Shown here piece by piece: positions 1,321 to 10,194 of a DNA stretch of 64,000 bases. This DNA is from Leuconostoc holzapfelii. Lineage in GTDB: Bacteria > Bacillota > Bacilli > Lactobacillales > Lactobacillaceae. The notes beneath the pieces were generated by a model, which was not told the origin of the DNA, did not search any database, and worked only from the letters and a program-made list of their open reading frames with translations. Position numbers and translations under genes: made by a program. The first letter of the stretch is position 1. Every line of letters starts with the position of its first letter. Location of the stretch: NCBI RefSeq assembly GCF_012396485.1, contig NZ_JAAXPO010000001.1:186001-250000 (forward strand), read 5' to 3'.

Positions 1321-2463
1321 TTAAATCATTTCCAAATGCAATTGATTTGGCTTTGCCCACCCCATCTTACGCATCACACGGTAACCAATAAATGACACCA
1401 CCACAGGGACAGCAACACCCACAATCATATATGCACCAAAGGCGACTGGATTAGACCCGGCTAAAGCCAATGGCACAATGAATGAATTAAAGCCAATACC
1501 AGCCATAGCAAATGGTGCCGTCACATGGAACACCATCGTGGCAATTGGTGCCGCAATGGCTGCACCAATCATTGGTGGGATAATCAACGCAGGATTTTCG
1601 GTTAAATTTGGGAATTGGATTTTTGGTGTGACAATACCTTGGGCAATCGTTGCGCCAATCTTATTTTCATGAAATGACATGGCTGGGAAGCCAACAAAGA
1701 CTGCGGTGGTACCAATCAAAATTGCCCCGGCTGCTTCAGGTGAAGTCACCCCAGTTGCGCCAATCGCCACCGCCAAAGCGGCAGCTGATGCAGGTGTCAT
1801 TGTCAAGCCTCCGAAAACCATGGCAACAACAGCTGTCCCAACAATTGGATTAACCGCAACACTTGAAGCAATAAAATGACCAATTGCTACTAAGGCCGGC
1901 GTTGTTACCATCGCTAAGTAGTAACCGCTCACCGTGCCAACAATTGTCGTGGCCGCAGGCACGATGACCATATCCAACGGTGTCTTCCCACTCAACCACT
2001 TGCCAAATACAACAGCAATCACAGCAGCAATGACTGCCGAAATAGGTTGTCCAGTCGTCATGATTGCAGATCCAGCCGCTTGTGGGCCAGCGTATCCAGT
2101 GGCCGTTACGCCTTGGACAGCTGCTTTACTAAAGAAAACAGCATTCGCGCCAACAGTTGAAGCAGCCATCGCGCTAAACATGACCATCGTGTTGGTTTTC
2201 ATTTGTGAGGCTACAGCTGCACCAAACGCCGCTGGCAACATCACTTTGGTGATGGCACCCATTTGAACCATCGGTGCCCAGTGGATAAATCCAGCAATTG
2301 TTTGTAACAACAAGCCCATCCCCAACGTCACCAAAATAGCATTGGATACCGCTGCTGAGGTGTTATAAACCAGTTCCCGCATGGAAGCTTTTGCTTCAAC
2401 AACTTTTTCTTGCATCTTTTCTGTATCAATTTCACGACCTGGTGTCATTGCGTTTTGTGCCAT
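1321..2463 (-). CDS. PfoR/EIIC_2-type membrane protein (annotated as PTS IIC-like)
   Basis: This 380-residue protein has about nine to ten hydrophobic segments after a charged cytoplasmic N-terminus of about 35 residues. The repeated small-residue segments (for example TMTPASAAALAVAIGATG) and the FPAMSFHENKIGATIAQG stretch match the PfoR / PTS_EIIC_2 family as I know it. That family is named after the sugar PTS, but its substrates are largely unknown. No IIA or IIB domain is fused or adjacent. Instead it is the first structural gene of an operon with livJ and livH, behind a leader peptide rich in Leu codons. This makes an amino-acid or 2-keto-acid related role at least as plausible as sugar uptake. 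The ribosome binding site is GGGAGAG. Confidence 0.7.
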   Translation of the reverse strand: MAQNAMTPGREIDTEKMQEKVVEAKASMRELVYNTSAAVSNAILVTLGMGLLLQTIAGFIHWAPMVQMGAITKVMLPAAFGAAVASQMKTNTMVMFSAMAASTVGANAVFFSKAAVQGVTATGYAGPQAAGSAIMTTGQPISAVIAAVIAVVFGKWLSGKTPLDMVIVPAATTIVGTVSGYYLAMVTTPALVAIGHFIASSVAVNPIVGTAVVAMVFGGLTMTPASAAALAVAIGATGVTSPEAAGAILIGTTAVFVGFPAMSFHENKIGATIAQGIVTPKIQFPNLTENPALIIPPMIGAAIAAPIATMVFHVTAPFAMAGIGFNSFIVPLALAGSNPVAFGAYMIVGVAVPVVVSFIGYRVMRKMGWAKPNQLHLEMI

Positions 2464-3574: not shown

Positions 3575-4948
3575 TTAGTAAGATTCATCAACATTAACGG
3601 CAACACTTTGCTTTTGAGAGACTTGTGCCAAAGTATACAGGCCCAGACCAACAGCAGCACCGACTAATGCTGGGACAATCCAGCCAAACCCTAATGCTGA
3701 AAACGGCACCAACTGGTGATATTGGCTCACAACTTGTTGGGCAAAGTGCCCCGCCATAAATGGTGAACTTGCCAAGGCATCGAGCAAGGCAGGTAAGGTC
3801 ACAAACCCAACGACACTGCGATACACCACTTTGGAGTAGTTAAAGAACTTCGCTGTAAGTGACAATAAGATTAAGACCAATGACAAAGGATACAACAACA
3901 TCAAGACAGGCACTGACCAAGCGACAATGTTGGTCAAGCCAGCATTAGCCGTCACAAACGACCCAAAAGCAATCACACGAAGGAACCACAAATAACTGAC
4001 TTTAGGAAATGCCAAGTGCATATCTTGTGCAAACGACACAAAGAGTCCCATGGCGGTGGTAAACACTGCAAGTGTGACAACCACACCTGTCAATGCCGTC
4101 CCGAAGTTGCCGGCATAATGGGCAACAATTTGTGCAAAGGCATCACCACCGTTTGCAGCCGCTTTAAATTGCCCCAAGCTAGTCACACCGAGCAGAACCA
4201 AAGCCGTATACAGTAAAGCCTCAGCCAAAATACTTAATAAGCCAGCCTTTGCCAAGACTTTAGACACTTGAACATCGCGAAAGCCAAGCGCCTTAACAGC
4301 ATAGACGACAGAAACGGCCAAAGCTAATAAAGCAATCCCATCCATCGTGTTATACCCATCCAGGATGCCTTGGAAGCCAGCATGTGCTTGATAAGTCGTG
4401 CTCACCACCTGATGCGTGTTTCCCATCGGCATAAAGAGTGCCATAAGTAAGACTAACAAAAGTAAGACCATAAATAGTGGATTTAAGTATTTACCGACCC
4501 ATTTCATCAAACCTGATTGTTTCACAGTCAAATAATATGCTAACCCGAAGAACAAGCCAGAAAATACAAGCATCCCCAAATCTTGATACTTTGGGGCGAT
4601 GAATGGTGAAACACCCATTGAAAATGCGGTGGCTGCCGTACGCGGTGTCCCAAAGAATGGTCCAATTGTCAAATGAATCGCCACCAAGAAAGCCAAGCCG
4701 AACCAATGACCAACTGGTCTAGCAACATCATAGACACTGCGGCTACGCGTGACACTAACTGCCAGCATGGCCAAGAAAGGCACCACGGTCCCTGTCACCA
4801 AAAACCCTAAGGTTGCAAGGAGCCAGTTGCCACCTGATAATTGGCCGAGTTGAACTGGAAAAATGAGATTCCCAGCGCCGAAAAACATGCCAAAGATTAA
4901 TGAAGCAACTAACACCAGTTGTTGCCAAGTGAGTTTTTTATTTTCCAT
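3575..4948 (-). CDS. brnQ: Branched-chain amino acid:cation symporter BrnQ
   Basis: This 457-residue LIVCS-family transporter has about 12 hydrophobic segments and imports Leu, Ile or Val with Na+ or H+. The family opening is clear: KKLTWQQLVLVASLIFGMFFGAGNLIFPVQLGQ, split here as KKLTWQQLVL and FGMFFGAGNLIFP. It starts 7 bp after the hydratase gene with an AAAGGAAAG site, so the two are co-transcribed. The operon lies behind an Ile-rich leader peptide and terminator, so expression is probably attenuated when charged tRNA-Ile is plentiful. It is a second uptake route for amino acids that the neighbouring liv system also handles. Confidence 0.95.
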   Translation of the reverse strand: MENKKLTWQQLVLVASLIFGMFFGAGNLIFPVQLGQLSGGNWLLATLGFLVTGTVVPFLAMLAVSVTRSRSVYDVARPVGHWFGLAFLVAIHLTIGPFFGTPRTAATAFSMGVSPFIAPKYQDLGMLVFSGLFFGLAYYLTVKQSGLMKWVGKYLNPLFMVLLLLVLLMALFMPMGNTHQVVSTTYQAHAGFQGILDGYNTMDGIALLALAVSVVYAVKALGFRDVQVSKVLAKAGLLSILAEALLYTALVLLGVTSLGQFKAAANGGDAFAQIVAHYAGNFGTALTGVVVTLAVFTTAMGLFVSFAQDMHLAFPKVSYLWFLRVIAFGSFVTANAGLTNIVAWSVPVLMLLYPLSLVLILLSLTAKFFNYSKVVYRSVVGFVTLPALLDALASSPFMAGHFAQQVVSQYHQLVPFSALGFGWIVPALVGAAVGLGLYTLAQVSQKQSVAVNVDESY

Positions 4949-4954
4949 GGTTAC

Positions 4955-5743
4955 TTACTTTCCTTTCACATTTAACACAACATCACCAAAGCCACCCGTA
5001 AAGGCCACGCGCCATTGGCCTGCATTGAGGGTCGGTGGCAACAAGAACGTTCCTGTAGAGGCTTTGGTCCCCGCAGGGAATGTCTTCCCTTGTTCGGCTA
5101 ACTTACTAACCAACCATTGTAATGACAACAACGGGTTGCCCAAAACTTCTGAGCCCTGACCTACAGCTACTTTTTCATCATCGTATGTGAGTGTTGCTTG
5201 CACTTCGGCAAGTGCCGCCACAGTCAACGTGTCGCCGTCTTTAGCTTCACCCACAACTACCGCCCCACCAACGGCACAATCGCTCAACACCAAATATTTA
5301 TCGAGCTGGGGAAACCACGTCTTAAACCGTGCATCTGGCACTTCTAATGCGGGGGCCACGGTGGTATTTTCAAGTAGTGTCTCAACCGACATGTCCGGCG
5401 TTAACGCTGTCTTTGCAGTAAAGACCAGCTCAACTTCAACCAATGGTTCATTATAATCAGCCAATGCTAAAGTTGCTGGTGAGTTAACAAATTTGTCAGC
5501 GACCTGTGCCCCATATAACGGTGAATCTGATTGAAACATCGCCTGCGTCTCAGGGGAAGTTAGCGATACCTTATAACCCGCAACTGCTTGACCTTTATGG
5601 GCCATCACCGTATCTTGTACTTGATAAGCTGTCTCAAAATCTGTCACGGTCCCAACGAAGGCGTCCCGATCTAACGGCTTATTTTCTTGGTATGCATCAA
5701 ATAACGCTTGGGCTAATGTTGTTTGTTCTGCTGTTAATGTCAT
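4955..5743 (-). CDS. FAH-superfamily 2-keto-4-pentenoate hydratase-like protein
   Basis: This 262-residue protein resembles MhpD-type hydratases and decarboxylases of the fumarylacetoacetate hydrolase fold. Evidence is the GYKVSLTSPETQAMFQSDSP region, the metal-ligand motif EPLVEVELVF (acidic residues) and the C-terminal GTFLLPPTL / VAFTGGFGDVVLNV strands. Classic members act on 2-hydroxydienoates from aromatic breakdown, a pathway unlikely in a lactic acid bacterium. Its place as the first gene after an Ile-rich leader, directly before brnQ, points to a 2-keto acid linked to branched-chain amino acids. That link is inference. The ribosome binding site is TTAGGAG. Confidence 0.75.
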   Translation of the reverse strand: MTLTAEQTTLAQALFDAYQENKPLDRDAFVGTVTDFETAYQVQDTVMAHKGQAVAGYKVSLTSPETQAMFQSDSPLYGAQVADKFVNSPATLALADYNEPLVEVELVFTAKTALTPDMSVETLLENTTVAPALEVPDARFKTWFPQLDKYLVLSDCAVGGAVVVGEAKDGDTLTVAALAEVQATLTYDDEKVAVGQGSEVLGNPLLSLQWLVSKLAEQGKTFPAGTKASTGTFLLPPTLNAGQWRVAFTGGFGDVVLNVKGK

Positions 5744-5761
5744 CTTTCTCTCCTAACGAAA

Positions 5762-5862
5762 TAAAACAAAAAGGACACGCTGCAATAAACTGCAGCGTGT
5801 CCTAAACGATCATCAGCTGCCTATCAATCATTGATAGGCACCACAAATTGTCAGCACCTATC
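5762..5862 (-). promoter_or_regulatory. Putative isoleucine attenuator with strong terminator
   Basis: A perfect 13-bp stem, AGGACACGCTGCA at 5803-5791 with its complement at 5784-5772, is followed on the transcript by TTTTTGTTTTA, a textbook intrinsic terminator. Upstream, three copies of a 6-nt core alternate. GATAGG at 5862-5857 overlaps the leader stop and can pair with CCTATC at 5838-5833. That same segment can instead pair with GATAGG at 5825-5820, as part of an 8-bp stem. Which fold favours read-through is not settled by inspection. Confidence 0.75.
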
Positions 5863-5920
5863 ACGAAATAATGATAATGCTGATAATAATTTGTGTGTTT
5901 GTGTGAGCTGATAATGTCAT
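5861..5920 (-). CDS. Isoleucine-rich leader peptide (19 aa)
   Basis: The frame starts at ATG 5920 and stops at TGA 5863-5861. Its second half reads QIIISIIIIS, with seven Ile codons (ATT and ATC). It follows a consensus promoter and precedes three alternative stems and a strong terminator, ahead of the hydratase-brnQ operon. The ribosome binding site is weak (AAGAG, about 9 nt upstream). This is the design of a transcription attenuator sensing charged tRNA-Ile. It is far too short for routine gene finding. Confidence 0.78.
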   Translation of the reverse strand: MTLSAHTNTQIIISIIIIS

Positions 5921-5951
5921 GTGATATTTCTCTTTTACATTTAATGATTTT

Positions 5952-5980
5952 ATTAAAACACACACATTAAATCTTGTCAA
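5952..5980 (-). promoter_or_regulatory. Promoter of the Ile leader / hydratase / brnQ operon
   Basis: TTGACA at 5980-5975 and TTTAAT at 5957-5952 are separated by 17 bp. The expected start near 5945 gives a leader of about 25 nt before the leader-peptide ATG. Confidence 0.75.
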
Positions 5981-6032
5981 CCTTAATTTTAAAATGAGGC
6001 CTTTTTATGCCAAGTTGGTATATTCTCTGATT

Positions 6033-6060
6033 TTGATTTTTATTCGTCTTACGGTATAAT
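6033..6060 (+). promoter_or_regulatory. Promoter of tRNA-Arg
   Basis: TTGATT at 6033-6038, a 16-bp spacer and a perfect TATAAT at 6055-6060 place the start a few bases before the tRNA 5' end at 6071. Confidence 0.7.
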
Positions 6061-6070
6061 ATGATAGTTC

Positions 6071-6143
<73 letters not shown>

Positions 6144-6145
6144 TC

Positions 6146-6178
6146 AAAAAAGCTGTGGCAGTATCGCCACAGCTTTTT
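6146..6178. terminator. Bidirectional terminator between tRNA-Arg and the ECF S-component gene
   Basis: The stem AAAAAGCTGTGGC / GCCACAGCTTTTT (6147-6159 and 6166-6178) has a 6-nt loop and T or A runs on both sides. It ends the tRNA on the plus strand and the S-component gene on the minus strand. Confidence 0.88.
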
Positions 6179-6800
6179 AATTTTGCCCGCCTGTGAGGCC
6201 TGCCCGTGCCGCAACCGGCACAATCACATTGCCAATCACCATGACTAAAATGAAGCCCACAATGATTTCAAAAATGGCATTAAATGACACAATGCCAATC
6301 AACCAACTCAGCAAATGATGGTTTGGAATACCCGTAAAGTTCGTGTGCATAACTGAAAAACCAATCGCCGTTAATATAACGACACCTACGGTGTTAATTA
6401 AAGCAGCCAGTATCCCTAACAACCCGAGGCCAACAAAACGGATCGGCGCTGTGCGCTGGCGTAAAAAGCGATTAAACAGCCACCCGATAATGACCCCAAC
6501 CAAAATCCGAGGCAATAAGGCGGTTACAGGATTTTGGAACATCAACGAGCCAATTGTCCCAGGATGCGTTAACGCGTTAAAAAACGACATCATGCCCCAA
6601 AAAAATCCCACAATTGCCCCATATTTGGGTCCTAAAATAATACCTGCAAGTGCCACTGTAAATTGAATGATTGTCGCACTAGCACCAACTACAAACGCGC
6701 CGAGTGGCATTGTGCCTAACCATGGGACAAGTGTTTGTACAAAAACAATCGCCACAAATAGCGTTGTTGTAATATAGTATGTCGTTTTCTGATTTGTCAT
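6177..6800 (-). CDS. ECF transporter S-component (vitamin-binding membrane subunit)
   Basis: This 207-residue protein has about six hydrophobic helices. It carries S-component style features such as ALAGIILGPKYGAIVGFFWG and LLPRILVGVIIGWLFN. It would bind a vitamin-type substrate and work with a shared EcfAA'T module encoded elsewhere. Its look is closest to pantothenate- or folate-type S subunits, but no riboswitch is visible upstream to fix the substrate. The start ATG at 6800 lacks a close strong ribosome binding site; a GAAAGGGAG stretch lies about 17 nt upstream. It is monocistronic. Confidence 0.85.
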   Translation of the reverse strand: MTNQKTTYYITTTLFVAIVFVQTLVPWLGTMPLGAFVVGASATIIQFTVALAGIILGPKYGAIVGFFWGMMSFFNALTHPGTIGSLMFQNPVTALLPRILVGVIIGWLFNRFLRQRTAPIRFVGLGLLGILAALINTVGVVILTAIGFSVMHTNFTGIPNHHLLSWLIGIVSFNAIFEIIVGFILVMVIGNVIVPVAARAGLTGGQN

Positions 6801-7331: not shown

Positions 7332-7367
7332 ATCAAAAAGCGACGCCATCTAGCATCGCTTTTGATT
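7332..7367 (-). terminator. Intrinsic terminator after ileS
   Basis: AATCAAAAAGCGA pairs with TCGCTTTTGATT, with one bulged A, giving a T run on the minus strand. It lies immediately after the ileS stop and before the IIB promoter. Confidence 0.8.
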
Positions 7368-10159
7368 TATTCAAATCCTTCGGTTAATGCTTCAGGATAA
7401 AATTCACGAATAATTTCTGCTTCGTGCTTTGATAATTCTGGGAAATCAGGATCAGCCCCCAAATCTTCGTGATACATGCGATCACGTGGTGACACACCAC
7501 CCGCAGCATGTGCCACAACAATCCGCAAGCCGTCATAATCCTTCGCCTCTCCGGCTTGTGCAACGTCTTCAACATGCAATTGTGAAACCATCAAAAGCAA
7601 ACGAACATCGGCGTTTAAATCTGTTAACAATTGTGCTTGTTCAGGTGTCACATACAATGTCAAAGCGGCCTCAGCATTCTTACCAATTAATTCCGCCGTA
7701 CGTGCCTCTTCCAACGCCTTATTAACTGCGTCACGCATTGTCATGAATGCCGCCCAGTTCGTTAATAATTGTGTCGTATCGCCAAGATCTTGGACTTCTG
7801 GCATTTCTGACAAATAGGCAAAGCCAGCTGTCTCATTTGGCAGATATTCCCACACTTCTTCGGCTGTATGAGGCAAGATTGGCAACATCAACTTTGTCAA
7901 AGCGAGCAAAGTTTCATAGAAGACTGTTTGCATTGAGCGACGCGCATGACCTGTTGGCGCTTCAACATAAACCACATCCTTGGCAATATCCAAGTAAAAC
8001 GCTGACAAGTCAACGTTGACAAAGTTAATCATCCGCTTAAAGATATCATTGAATTGGTAGTTATCATAATAACCGCGCACATCTTTGACGAAGTCATTTA
8101 ACAAAACTGAGAAGTATTGGTCGTGACCCGCACGATCAGCAAACGCCACGGCATCAGTGGCATAGTTAAAGTCAGACGTGTTAGCCATCAAGAAACGCAA
8201 CGTATTCCGTAACTTACGATAACTCTCAGAGACTTGCTTCAAAATTTCGTTTGACACTGGCATATCTTGTGACGTGTCGACAGAAATTGTCCACAAACGG
8301 AGAATTTCAATGCCCATTTGATCAGCCACATCAAGCGGTGAAATCGTGTTGCCTAATGACTTTGACATCTTGTTCCCGTTACCGTCAAGTGTAAAGCCTT
8401 GTGACAAGACATTTTGATATGGCGCATGACCAGTTGCTGCAACAGAAGTAATTAATGATGAGTTGAACCAACCACGGTATTGATCAGACCCTTCCAAATA
8501 CAAATCCGCTGGGTAATCAAGCTGTGGGCGAGTATTCATGACACCGGCCCAAGAGGAACCAGAATCAAACCAAACATCCATAATGTCCTCTTCTTTTGTG
8601 AAGTGGCCATTTGGTGAATGTTCATTCGTATAACCTTCAGGCAGTAACTCCGTTGCGTCATGTTCGAACCAATAGTTTGACCCATGCTTTGCAAACAAGT
8701 CCGCAACATGATTAATGATTGTTTGATCCAAAATCGGTGTTTGATCTTCTGCATAGAAGATTGGCAATGGGACACCCCAGACACGCTGACGTGAAATGAC
8801 CCAATCCCCACGGTCACGAATCATGTTGTACAAACGCTTCTTGCCCCAATCTGGATAGAAATTCACGTTATCTAATTCGTTTAAGATGTTTTGACGGAAC
8901 TTTTCAACTGACGCAAACCATTGTGGCACAGCACGCCAAATGATTGGCTTCTTCGTCCGCCAGTCAAATGGGTATGAGTGAGTAATCTTTTCTTTTGCTA
9001 AGAAAACATTAGCTTCAGATAATTTGTTAATCACCAAACCAACCACGTCATCATAGAACTGACCTTCAAAGTCTGCGCCGGCATTCTTGGTCATGTAACC
9101 TTTTTCGTCAACAGTGACTGCAACTTCCAGGCCATACTCTTTTCCAACGTTGAAGTCATCTTCACCAAACCCAGGCGCGGTATGCACTAACCCAGTACCA
9201 GAATCTAACGTGACGTGATCCGCATTCATCACGAGCTCTTCAACGTCTTCATCCCAAGGATGATAGGCTGTGATACGGTCTAATTCTTGGCCCTTGTACG
9301 TCGCAAGCACTTCGTACTTGTCCCAACCGAACTTAGGCGCAATAGCTTCTAGGCGACCTGTGGCCACAACGAATTTACGTGTTTCCCCTTCAGGTTGTAC
9401 CACGGCATAATCCATGTCAGGCCCCAAAGTAATCCCACGAGAAGCTGTTACCGTAAATGGTGTGGTCGTCCAAACAACCAAGTAGGTCTCTGAATCAAGA
9501 ATCCCCTTACCATCCTTCACGCGGTTGGCATAATAAAGTGACGTCGAATCAATATCGTGATACTCAATTTCCGCTTCAGCCAGCGCTGATTCAGATGACC
9601 AAGACCAATAGACTGGCTTTGAGCCCTTAAAGATGTAGCCCTTACCCGCCATTTCACCGAAAACACGGACTTGCGCTGCTTCAAATTCAGGTTGCAAAGT
9701 AACATATGGATTTTCCCAATCAGCCATAATCCCCAAACGTTTGAAGTCATGACGTTGCTTATCCACTTGTTCTAAGGCAAAGGCCTTGGCTAAATCGCGC
9801 CAAGCTGCTTTGGGCATTGACTTACGATCATGGCCCGCCTTAGTCAATTGTTGCTCGATTGGCAAACCATGTGTGTCCCAACCAGGGACATATGGGGCAT
9901 AGAAGCCAGCCATATTTTTATAGCGTACAATAATATCTTTTGAAATTTTATTCAATGCGTGACCCAAGTGAATGTTCCCATTGGCATATGGTGGGCCATC
10001 ATGTAAATTAAAATGTGGCTTTTGTTCGTTTTGAGTTAAACGTTGTTGGTACAAGTTGGCATCGTACCATTTTTCTTGCCGAACTGGCTCTGTTTTGGGC
10101 AATGACCCACGCATTGGAAAATCAGTTTTTCCAAGATTCAGTGTTTCTTTATACTTCAT
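7367..10159 (-). CDS. ileS: Isoleucyl-tRNA synthetase
   Basis: This 930-residue class I synthetase attaches isoleucine to tRNA-Ile. The HIGH-type motif (GNIHLGH, about residues 61-67) and KMSKS ([10 protein letters not shown]) are present, with the editing domain between them. I chose the ATG at 10159, 7 nt after AGGAG. Bacterial IleS usually ends in a zinc finger with four Cys. Here the matching tail (about residues 888-916) reads SPRD and LSKHEAE, so Ser, Asp, Ser and Glu stand where the Cys pairs should be, and the zinc site appears lost. Expression is controlled by the T-box upstream. Confidence 0.97.
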
Positions 10160-10194
10160 CAACTATCTCCTCTGATGTTTTCTCAAATTATAAT

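Follow-up and report, generated by a model that had tools for sequence, protein, structure and literature searches.

Does the short, isoleucine-rich open reading frame that precedes a hydratase gene and brnQ in Leuconostoc holzapfelii control these genes, and which signal would it sense? An earlier note on the 64,000-nt stretch of DNA analyzed here (the window) had proposed an Ile-sensing attenuator for the BrnQ carrier, independent of T-box control.

Architecture of the Leader and Its Operon

All the elements listed in the earlier note are present at window positions 5762-5980 (Table 1), on the minus strand, a point the note left unstated. Direct reading of the sequence recovers the TTGACA-17-TTTAAT promoter, which recurs in relatives; hexamers and spacing are identical ahead of all 17 Leuconostoc leaders of the window type that we compared. 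The promoter is missing from the list produced by our scan of the window because the filter accepts only -10 hexamers with A as their second base. By eye, most relatives have a purine stretch similar to the weak Shine-Dalgarno-like motif 5' of their ATG. The 19-codon frame with its seven Ile codons was found as described, and in the ORF listing it sits within a longer, TTG-started frame. The alternating GATAGG, CCTATC and GATAGG cores can be read at about 5862-5857, 5838-5833 and 5825-5820, respectively, and the GCTGC of segment 5 is found at 5796-5792. The intrinsic terminator between leader and first gene, noted earlier as a 13-bp stem with a U tail, has 13 pairs in our fold and 14 in a terminator scan. 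The leader folds with -72.4 kcal/mol, compared with -37.5 +/- 3.7 kcal/mol for shuffled sequences (z is -9.35; 0 of 200 shuffles are as good).

The product of the first gene scores below the equivalog cut-offs and matches PDB entry 1sv6 (E 2.5e-18). A tRNA-Arg(CCT) gene (window 6071-6143, plus strand) lies just upstream of the leader and is divergent from it, and ileS is located at 7367-10162 on the minus strand. Near brnQ, window positions 1321-2463 encode a PF13303-type membrane protein. Members of this family elsewhere (L190, L218) are preceded by an Ile leader of the same kind, hinting at a role of the protein in isoleucine transport.

Table 1. Elements of the leader and the genes it precedes (window coordinates)
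Feature	Position	Strand	Remarks
Promoter TTGACA-17 nt-TTTAAT	5952..5980	-	TTGACA 5980-5975, TTTAAT 5957-5952
Weak Shine-Dalgarno-like AAAAGAGA	5929..5936	-	ahead of the small frame; putative function
Leader ORF MTLSAHTNTQIIISIIIIS*	5861..5920	-	19 codons, 7 Ile; ATG 5920 to TGA 5861; Ile run 5890-5867
Segment 0 (ATTATCAGCT)	5906..5915	-	codons 2-5; partner of segment 4b
Segment 1	5871..5895	-	over the Ile codons; pairs with segment 2
Segment 2	5841..5863	-	starts at the stop codon; TGATAGG core 5863-5857
Segment 3 (TGCCTATCA)	5832..5840	-	pairs with segment 2 or 4
Segment 4 (TGATAGGCAGC)	5816..5826	-	3:4 hairpin and 4:5 antiterminator
Segment 4b (AGCTGATGAT)	5809..5818	-	partner of segment 0
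Intrinsic terminator and U tail	5762..5803	-	segments 5 and 6, 5803-5772
2-Keto-4-pentenoate-hydratase-superfamily gene	4955..5743	-	first gene 3' of the leader
brnQ, branched-chain amino acid carrier	3575..4948	-	Pfam PF05525 E 1.7e-110; TIGR00796 above cut-off

Search for Known Riboswitches

The claim that the leader is independent of T-box control agrees with our searches. No T-box reaches the gathering score anywhere in the 64,000-nt window, ileS included, and none is matched up to E 10 at positions 5600-6300. Over the leader no Rfam 15 family attains its gathering score, either in the window or at eight other leader loci, and we rejected a known riboswitch or T-box at this locus. Sub-threshold matches over the leader look like chance, the best being a microRNA family (28.3 bits, cut-off 47).

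T-boxes over the cut-off are present in 59 of 60 Lactobacillaceae genomes, and in other genera of the family hydratase and brnQ tend to carry them (motifs identified by eye). Twelve such loci were submitted to the T-box search: L019, L021 and L023 (before hydratase) and L059 and L060 (before brnQ) reach the gathering score, and L018, L020, L022, L057, L058, L061 and L062 fall below it. All five gathering-score T-boxes have AUC in the specifier loop (by eye), which independently ties both genes to isoleucine. One genome (G036) has a T-box ahead of hydratase and a leader ahead of brnQ. A small frame with a ribosome-site-like stretch (e.g. MEVQISNSNDSSQIIISI.. in L023) is seen by eye between the T-box terminator and hydratase or brnQ in L019, L021, L022, L023, L057, L059 and L060.

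The AUC T-boxes before the same genes in relatives would fit a T-box, or another tRNA- or ligand-binding riboswitch, in which the small frame is incidental. We give this explanation almost no credence, in view of the negative Rfam searches, of an Ile run that is present in frame 0 only, and of paralogous brnQ loci that carry Val codons instead.

Isoleucine Codons in the Small Frame

From 70 covariance-model matches at E <= 1e-3, we retained 61 leaders at E <= 4.6e-6, a cut chosen just above the first antisense match; the leader of G018, L054 of G025, and six hydratase leaders of a second type (described below) lie outside this set. The frame, its length (17-23 codons) and its Ile/Val run are kept among the leaders of relatives. 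Over the final 10 codons, frame 0 of the 61 leaders has 52% Ile, 10% Val and 3% Leu, compared with 2% Ile in each of the other frames; upstream codons contain 4% Ile. The RNAs share a short frame with a run of putatively sensed codons that is conserved in frame. The distance from the stop codon to the segment 2 core is 0 to 3 nt in 51 of the 61 leaders (range -6 to +7).

Ile dominates in 50 leaders, Val in 10, and neither in one. Seven genomes of one genus (g2) have two tandem leaders (L129-L134, L162), an Ile leader ahead of one brnQ and a Val leader ahead of a brnQ paralogue.

The peptide could instead report the overall rate of translation, or more than one branched-chain amino acid. Some leaders do mix Ile, Val and Leu, a pair of leaders before a GshA-like gene reads TVSVSSVTH, and characterized BrnQ orthologues import all three branched-chain amino acids (PMC2494555). 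Such a broader input appears very unlikely to us given the window leader (seven Ile, no Val, and one Leu near the start), the prevalence of Ile-dominated leaders, and the AUC specifiers in the T-boxes of relatives. Charged tRNA-Ile remains our preferred input.

Covariation of Alternative Helices

The earlier note had suggested a comparative alignment of the leader. We built two: A3 contains 18 close leaders (17 distinct), and A5 contains all 61. The alternative helices are conserved in both, with 4:5 barely varying. One set of folds comprises 0:4b, 1:2, 3:4 and the terminator 5:6; the other comprises 2:3 and 4:5. The antiterminator, which the earlier note did not name, is the pairing of segment 4 with the terminator arm (GCAGC/GCTGC). 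Segment 2 repeats segment 4, and both track segment 3 through sequence changes.

For the terminator state, 95.1% of the cells in A3 are paired and 11 of 40 pairs have changed on both sides (0 of 500 shuffles). The antiterminator state is 96.6% paired but hardly varies (two-sided changes in 1 of 12 pairs); the 2:3 helix of these closest leaders shows no two-sided change, and one of its pairs is broken in 6 of the 17 distinct rows. In A5, which was fitted to the structure model and whose counts lean towards that structure, the terminator state has 91.2% of its cells paired, and both partners have changed in 35 of 40 pairs (0 of 500 shuffles), including 12 of 12 modelled pairs of the terminator stem.

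We also compared the complementarity of segments within their own leader and across the 61 leaders, using 2000 permutations that leave the relatedness among leaders in place. The own score exceeds the cross score for 2:3 (18.6 versus 13.7), for 0:4b (17.06 versus 11.89) and for 4:5 (15.76 versus 14.85). None of the 2000 permutations reaches the observed mean for any of the three helices, narrowly so for 4:5 (best permutation 15.74). Stems of at least 7 bp are formed by 2:3 in 49 of 61 leaders (5 or shorter in 5), and 4:5 is 6 or longer in 52. The two mutually exclusive folds are kept by covariation, which is weak for the 4:5 arm because its core hardly varies.

The 0:4b helix, absent from the earlier note, joins early codons of the frame to bases just 5' of the terminator. 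It has at least 7 bp in 46 of 61 leaders, was not found (under 5 bp) in 3, and takes different sequences in different leaders (GAAAAACAC/GTGTTTTTC in L004, ATTTGACTTCA/TGAAGTCAAAT in L132 and CAACCAATACT/AGTGTTGGTTG in L158). In the window leader and others it overlaps the AGC used by 4:5, and the two helices therefore compete. We infer that 0:4b acts as an anti-antiterminator; this covarying helix is part of the switch design.

Predicted Effect of Ribosome Position

To model translation, we cut each transcript before the terminator 3' arm and let a ribosome mask about -15 to +16 nt. Averaged over the 61 leaders, the probability of the antiterminator, P(4:5), reaches 0.36-0.43 while the P site holds one of the codons -10 to -5, counted back from the stop. 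It is at most 0.10 from codon -4 onwards, 0.03 once the ribosome sits at the stop codon, and 0.01 without a ribosome. With the P site within -10 to -5, P(4:5) is above 0.5 in 39 of the 61 leaders and at or below 0.25 in 15; with the ribosome at the stop it is above 0.5 in 2. At the best position of each leader 42 exceed 0.5, some of these positions being outside the Ile run. In a first masking test, stalled ribosomes gave higher values than ribosomes at the stop in 35 of 61 leaders (37 with a queued ribosome) and the reverse in 4. Relative to the stop position, P(4:5) gains a mean of 0.343, compared with 0.067 when spacers are shuffled; the gain is above 0.2 for 46 of 61 leaders versus 109 of 732 shuffles, and 34 leaders beat all 12 of their own shuffles (4.7 expected). 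Ribosome position selects the fold in silico, though not in every leader.

In the window leader P(4:5) is 0.98 with Gln10 in the P site and the first Ile codon in the A site, and 0.00 at the stop. For a lone ribosome the values from -10 to -5 are 0.98, 0.27, 0.31, 0.16, 0.04 and 0.00, and the effect is thus strong only at the first Ile. When nucleotides 1-17 of the frame are also covered, mimicking a second ribosome behind the first (for which there is physical room only at the later positions), P(4:5) is 0.90-0.99 at all six positions, and across the set the leaders above 0.5 rise from 39 to 51 of 61. Position -5 is an edge: with a mask one base longer the two-ribosome state drops to 0.09 from 0.90. 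The rise on covering the frame start hints that, in the folding model, full antitermination requires segment 0 to be occupied.

A Model for Attenuation

Taken together, the best explanation, and in our view a highly probable one on sequence comparison and modelling, is a ribosome-mediated transcription attenuator that would sense charged tRNA-Ile; we infer regulation by Ile itself. An Ile-sensing attenuator independent of a T-box, as first proposed, is the best-supported reading, with no T-box found and the alternative helices conserved. With ample Ile, the ribosome would reach the stop codon and cover segment 2; segment 3 would pair with segment 4, segment 0 would hold 4b, and the terminator would end transcription. 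With little Ile, the ribosome would wait on the Ile codons and cover segment 1. Segment 2 could then take segment 3, leaving segment 4 free for the terminator 5' arm; with this arm occupied, the polymerase would read through into hydratase and brnQ. Without a ribosome, 1:2, 3:4 and 0:4b would form and transcription would stop. The complete terminator is predicted to be very stable, and the model would need a co-transcriptional order of events.

Occurrence in Lactobacillaceae

The hydratase gene is present in 18 of 19 Leuconostoc genomes searched, in pieces in the fragmentary assembly of G018; G010 is without it, and its sole brnQ match is weak. In each of the 18 genomes with the gene, an Ile-rich leader frame and a terminator lie ahead of hydratase. 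The leader is of the window type (QIIISIIII or a near form) in twelve of them and of a second type (NTIINAIIII or near forms), of unrelated sequence and the same helix logic, in six. In the latter six, brnQ is located elsewhere, under its own QIIISIIII-type leader (L046-L051). In L011 and L013-L017, which precede hydratase, about 7 nt separate the end of the -10 box from the ATG of the leader (by eye). The frame therefore looks leaderless, with its ATG at or beside the transcription start.

A covariance model built from A3 (R1) matches 62 of 397 Lactobacillaceae genomes in 19 of 40 genera at E <= 1e-3, some of these matches by chance. Nine of the R1 loci fetched, all with weak scores (L153, L155, L159-L161, L163-L166), have no plausible leader frame and were set aside, as were opposite-strand echoes of the terminator. 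L163 may nevertheless be a real leader, because its next gene resembles an HTH gene found later. A second covariance model (R2) matches 80 of the 397 genomes in 16 of 40 genera at E <= 1e-5. In a draw of 395 genomes across Lactobacillales, family members among them, 8 have R2 matches at 1e-5, all Lactobacillaceae and none outside the family. We rejected a wider spread in the order: at E 1e-3 R1 does match 13 non-Lactobacillaceae genomes, with scores of 28.4-31.5 bits, and we take these weak matches as chance terminators. A search for plasmid copies found none.

Genes Downstream of the Leader

In addition to the leaders described above, 41 R2 places were inspected, and those left out include G354 (contig end) and G163. 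The next gene was classified at 102 places by BLAST of the next frames, with family names taken from one representative each. BrnQ (37), an MHS-type MFS transporter (28; the label is our own, for a TIGR00883 match below cut-off), hydratase (12) and IlvD (8) account for 85 places. Rarer are an HTH regulator (3), a GshA-like protein, a PF13303 membrane protein and ApbE (2 each), and a PTS and an SSF-like protein (1 each). No next gene was found at 6 places, one of which (L193) is a false match.

The earlier description as an attenuator for BrnQ holds in that the leader precedes hydratase-brnQ, but it is hydratase, and not only BrnQ, that is common to the Leuconostoc loci. G009 has no brnQ match, and G011 and G018 have a brnQ remnant with stops; leader and hydratase are kept in all three. 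BrnQ as the sole target is ruled out, since loss or decay of brnQ leaves the leader in place ahead of hydratase.

In G002, G004 and G011 an HTH regulator gene follows an Ile/Leu leader belonging to this family (L186, L192 and L194, respectively). L127 (3487-3617) and L128 (3444-3578), ahead of the GshA-like gene, have the same architecture with the leader MIKSASI(K/N)LTVSVSSVTH. A related leader with a terminator and no same-strand gene after it is found in G015, G016, G008, G014 and G002 (L185, L187, L188, L189 and L191, respectively). These gene-less leaders read ..LILSVIVIIT or near forms; the ATG frame identified in L188 lacks the Ile run. L185 and L187-L189 lie between the end of an ABC-ATPase-like gene and a convergent phosphoketolase-like gene (names assigned by eye), and in L191 another convergent frame comes first. 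Possibly, the gene-less copies act as a free RNA or peptide.

Could the leader as a whole be such a free-standing small RNA or peptide gene, with a terminator that insulates the operon and no switch? The most stable fold does contain the terminator, and five Leuconostoc genomes have the gene-less arrangement. We consider this highly improbable, because segments 2 and 4 change in step with segment 3, ribosome position affects the fold more strongly than it does in shuffles, and 96 of the 102 places precede a recognized gene, 45 of them BrnQ or IlvD.

Comparison with Known Attenuators

The his operon attenuator of enteric bacteria is a six-segment cascade (A-F). It shares with the present RNA a leader peptide with a run of sensed codons and alternating helices ending in an antiterminator or a terminator. 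Our leaders differ in their Ile or Val codons and in an extra covarying helix between the frame start and the bases before the terminator. The cascade (1:2, 3:4 and 5:6 versus 2:3 and 4:5) is of the his type, in the sense of a likeness in working.

Leader-peptide attenuation of branched-chain amino acid genes has precedents in Firmicutes. In Rli60, the ilv-leu leader of Listeria monocytogenes, a 13-residue peptide rich in branched-chain amino acid codons directs ribosome-mediated transcription attenuation, shown with mutants (PMC5864092); there, the terminator forms from segments 3 and 4, and the leader precedes the ilv-leu operon. For Staphylococcus aureus ilvD, leader-peptide attenuation is likewise supported (PMC5794164), with a Leu-rich peptide and a biosynthesis operon. 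T-box(Ile) leaders (RF00230) precede hydratase or brnQ in other genera; they differ in reading the tRNA directly, without translation, and are not matched at our locus. Exchange of T-box and leader peptide on related genes has been reported for his genes in Firmicutes, in other lineages (PMC2965389, PMC9413887).

Among the literature matches listed, as far as their accessible text goes and with subscription journals outside the search, no such leader before brnQ, ilvD or hydratase is described for Leuconostoc or other Lactobacillaceae, and a family of leader switches in Lactobacillaceae seems not to have been named before. We tentatively propose, as a possibility we would not yet call probable, that such a family stands in place of T-boxes on Ile/Val genes, that through the covarying 0:4b helix both ribosome loading at the frame start and stalling on the Ile codons set the outcome, and that the gene-less copies may act in trans as RNA or peptide.

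T-boxes are common in this family. The leaders would give a set of related genes a second type of sensor, based on translation, which at times coexists in one genome with an Ile T-box on a different gene of the set; the exchange of one sensor for the other is now directly testable. If our reading holds, the hydratase-superfamily enzyme and the MHS-type transporters should concern isoleucine or its keto acids; for hydratase this signal is suggested by the Ile T-boxes in some genera, by two leader types in Leuconostoc, and by the leader being kept where brnQ is lost. For fermentation strains, the leaders are candidate sensors of Ile and Val.
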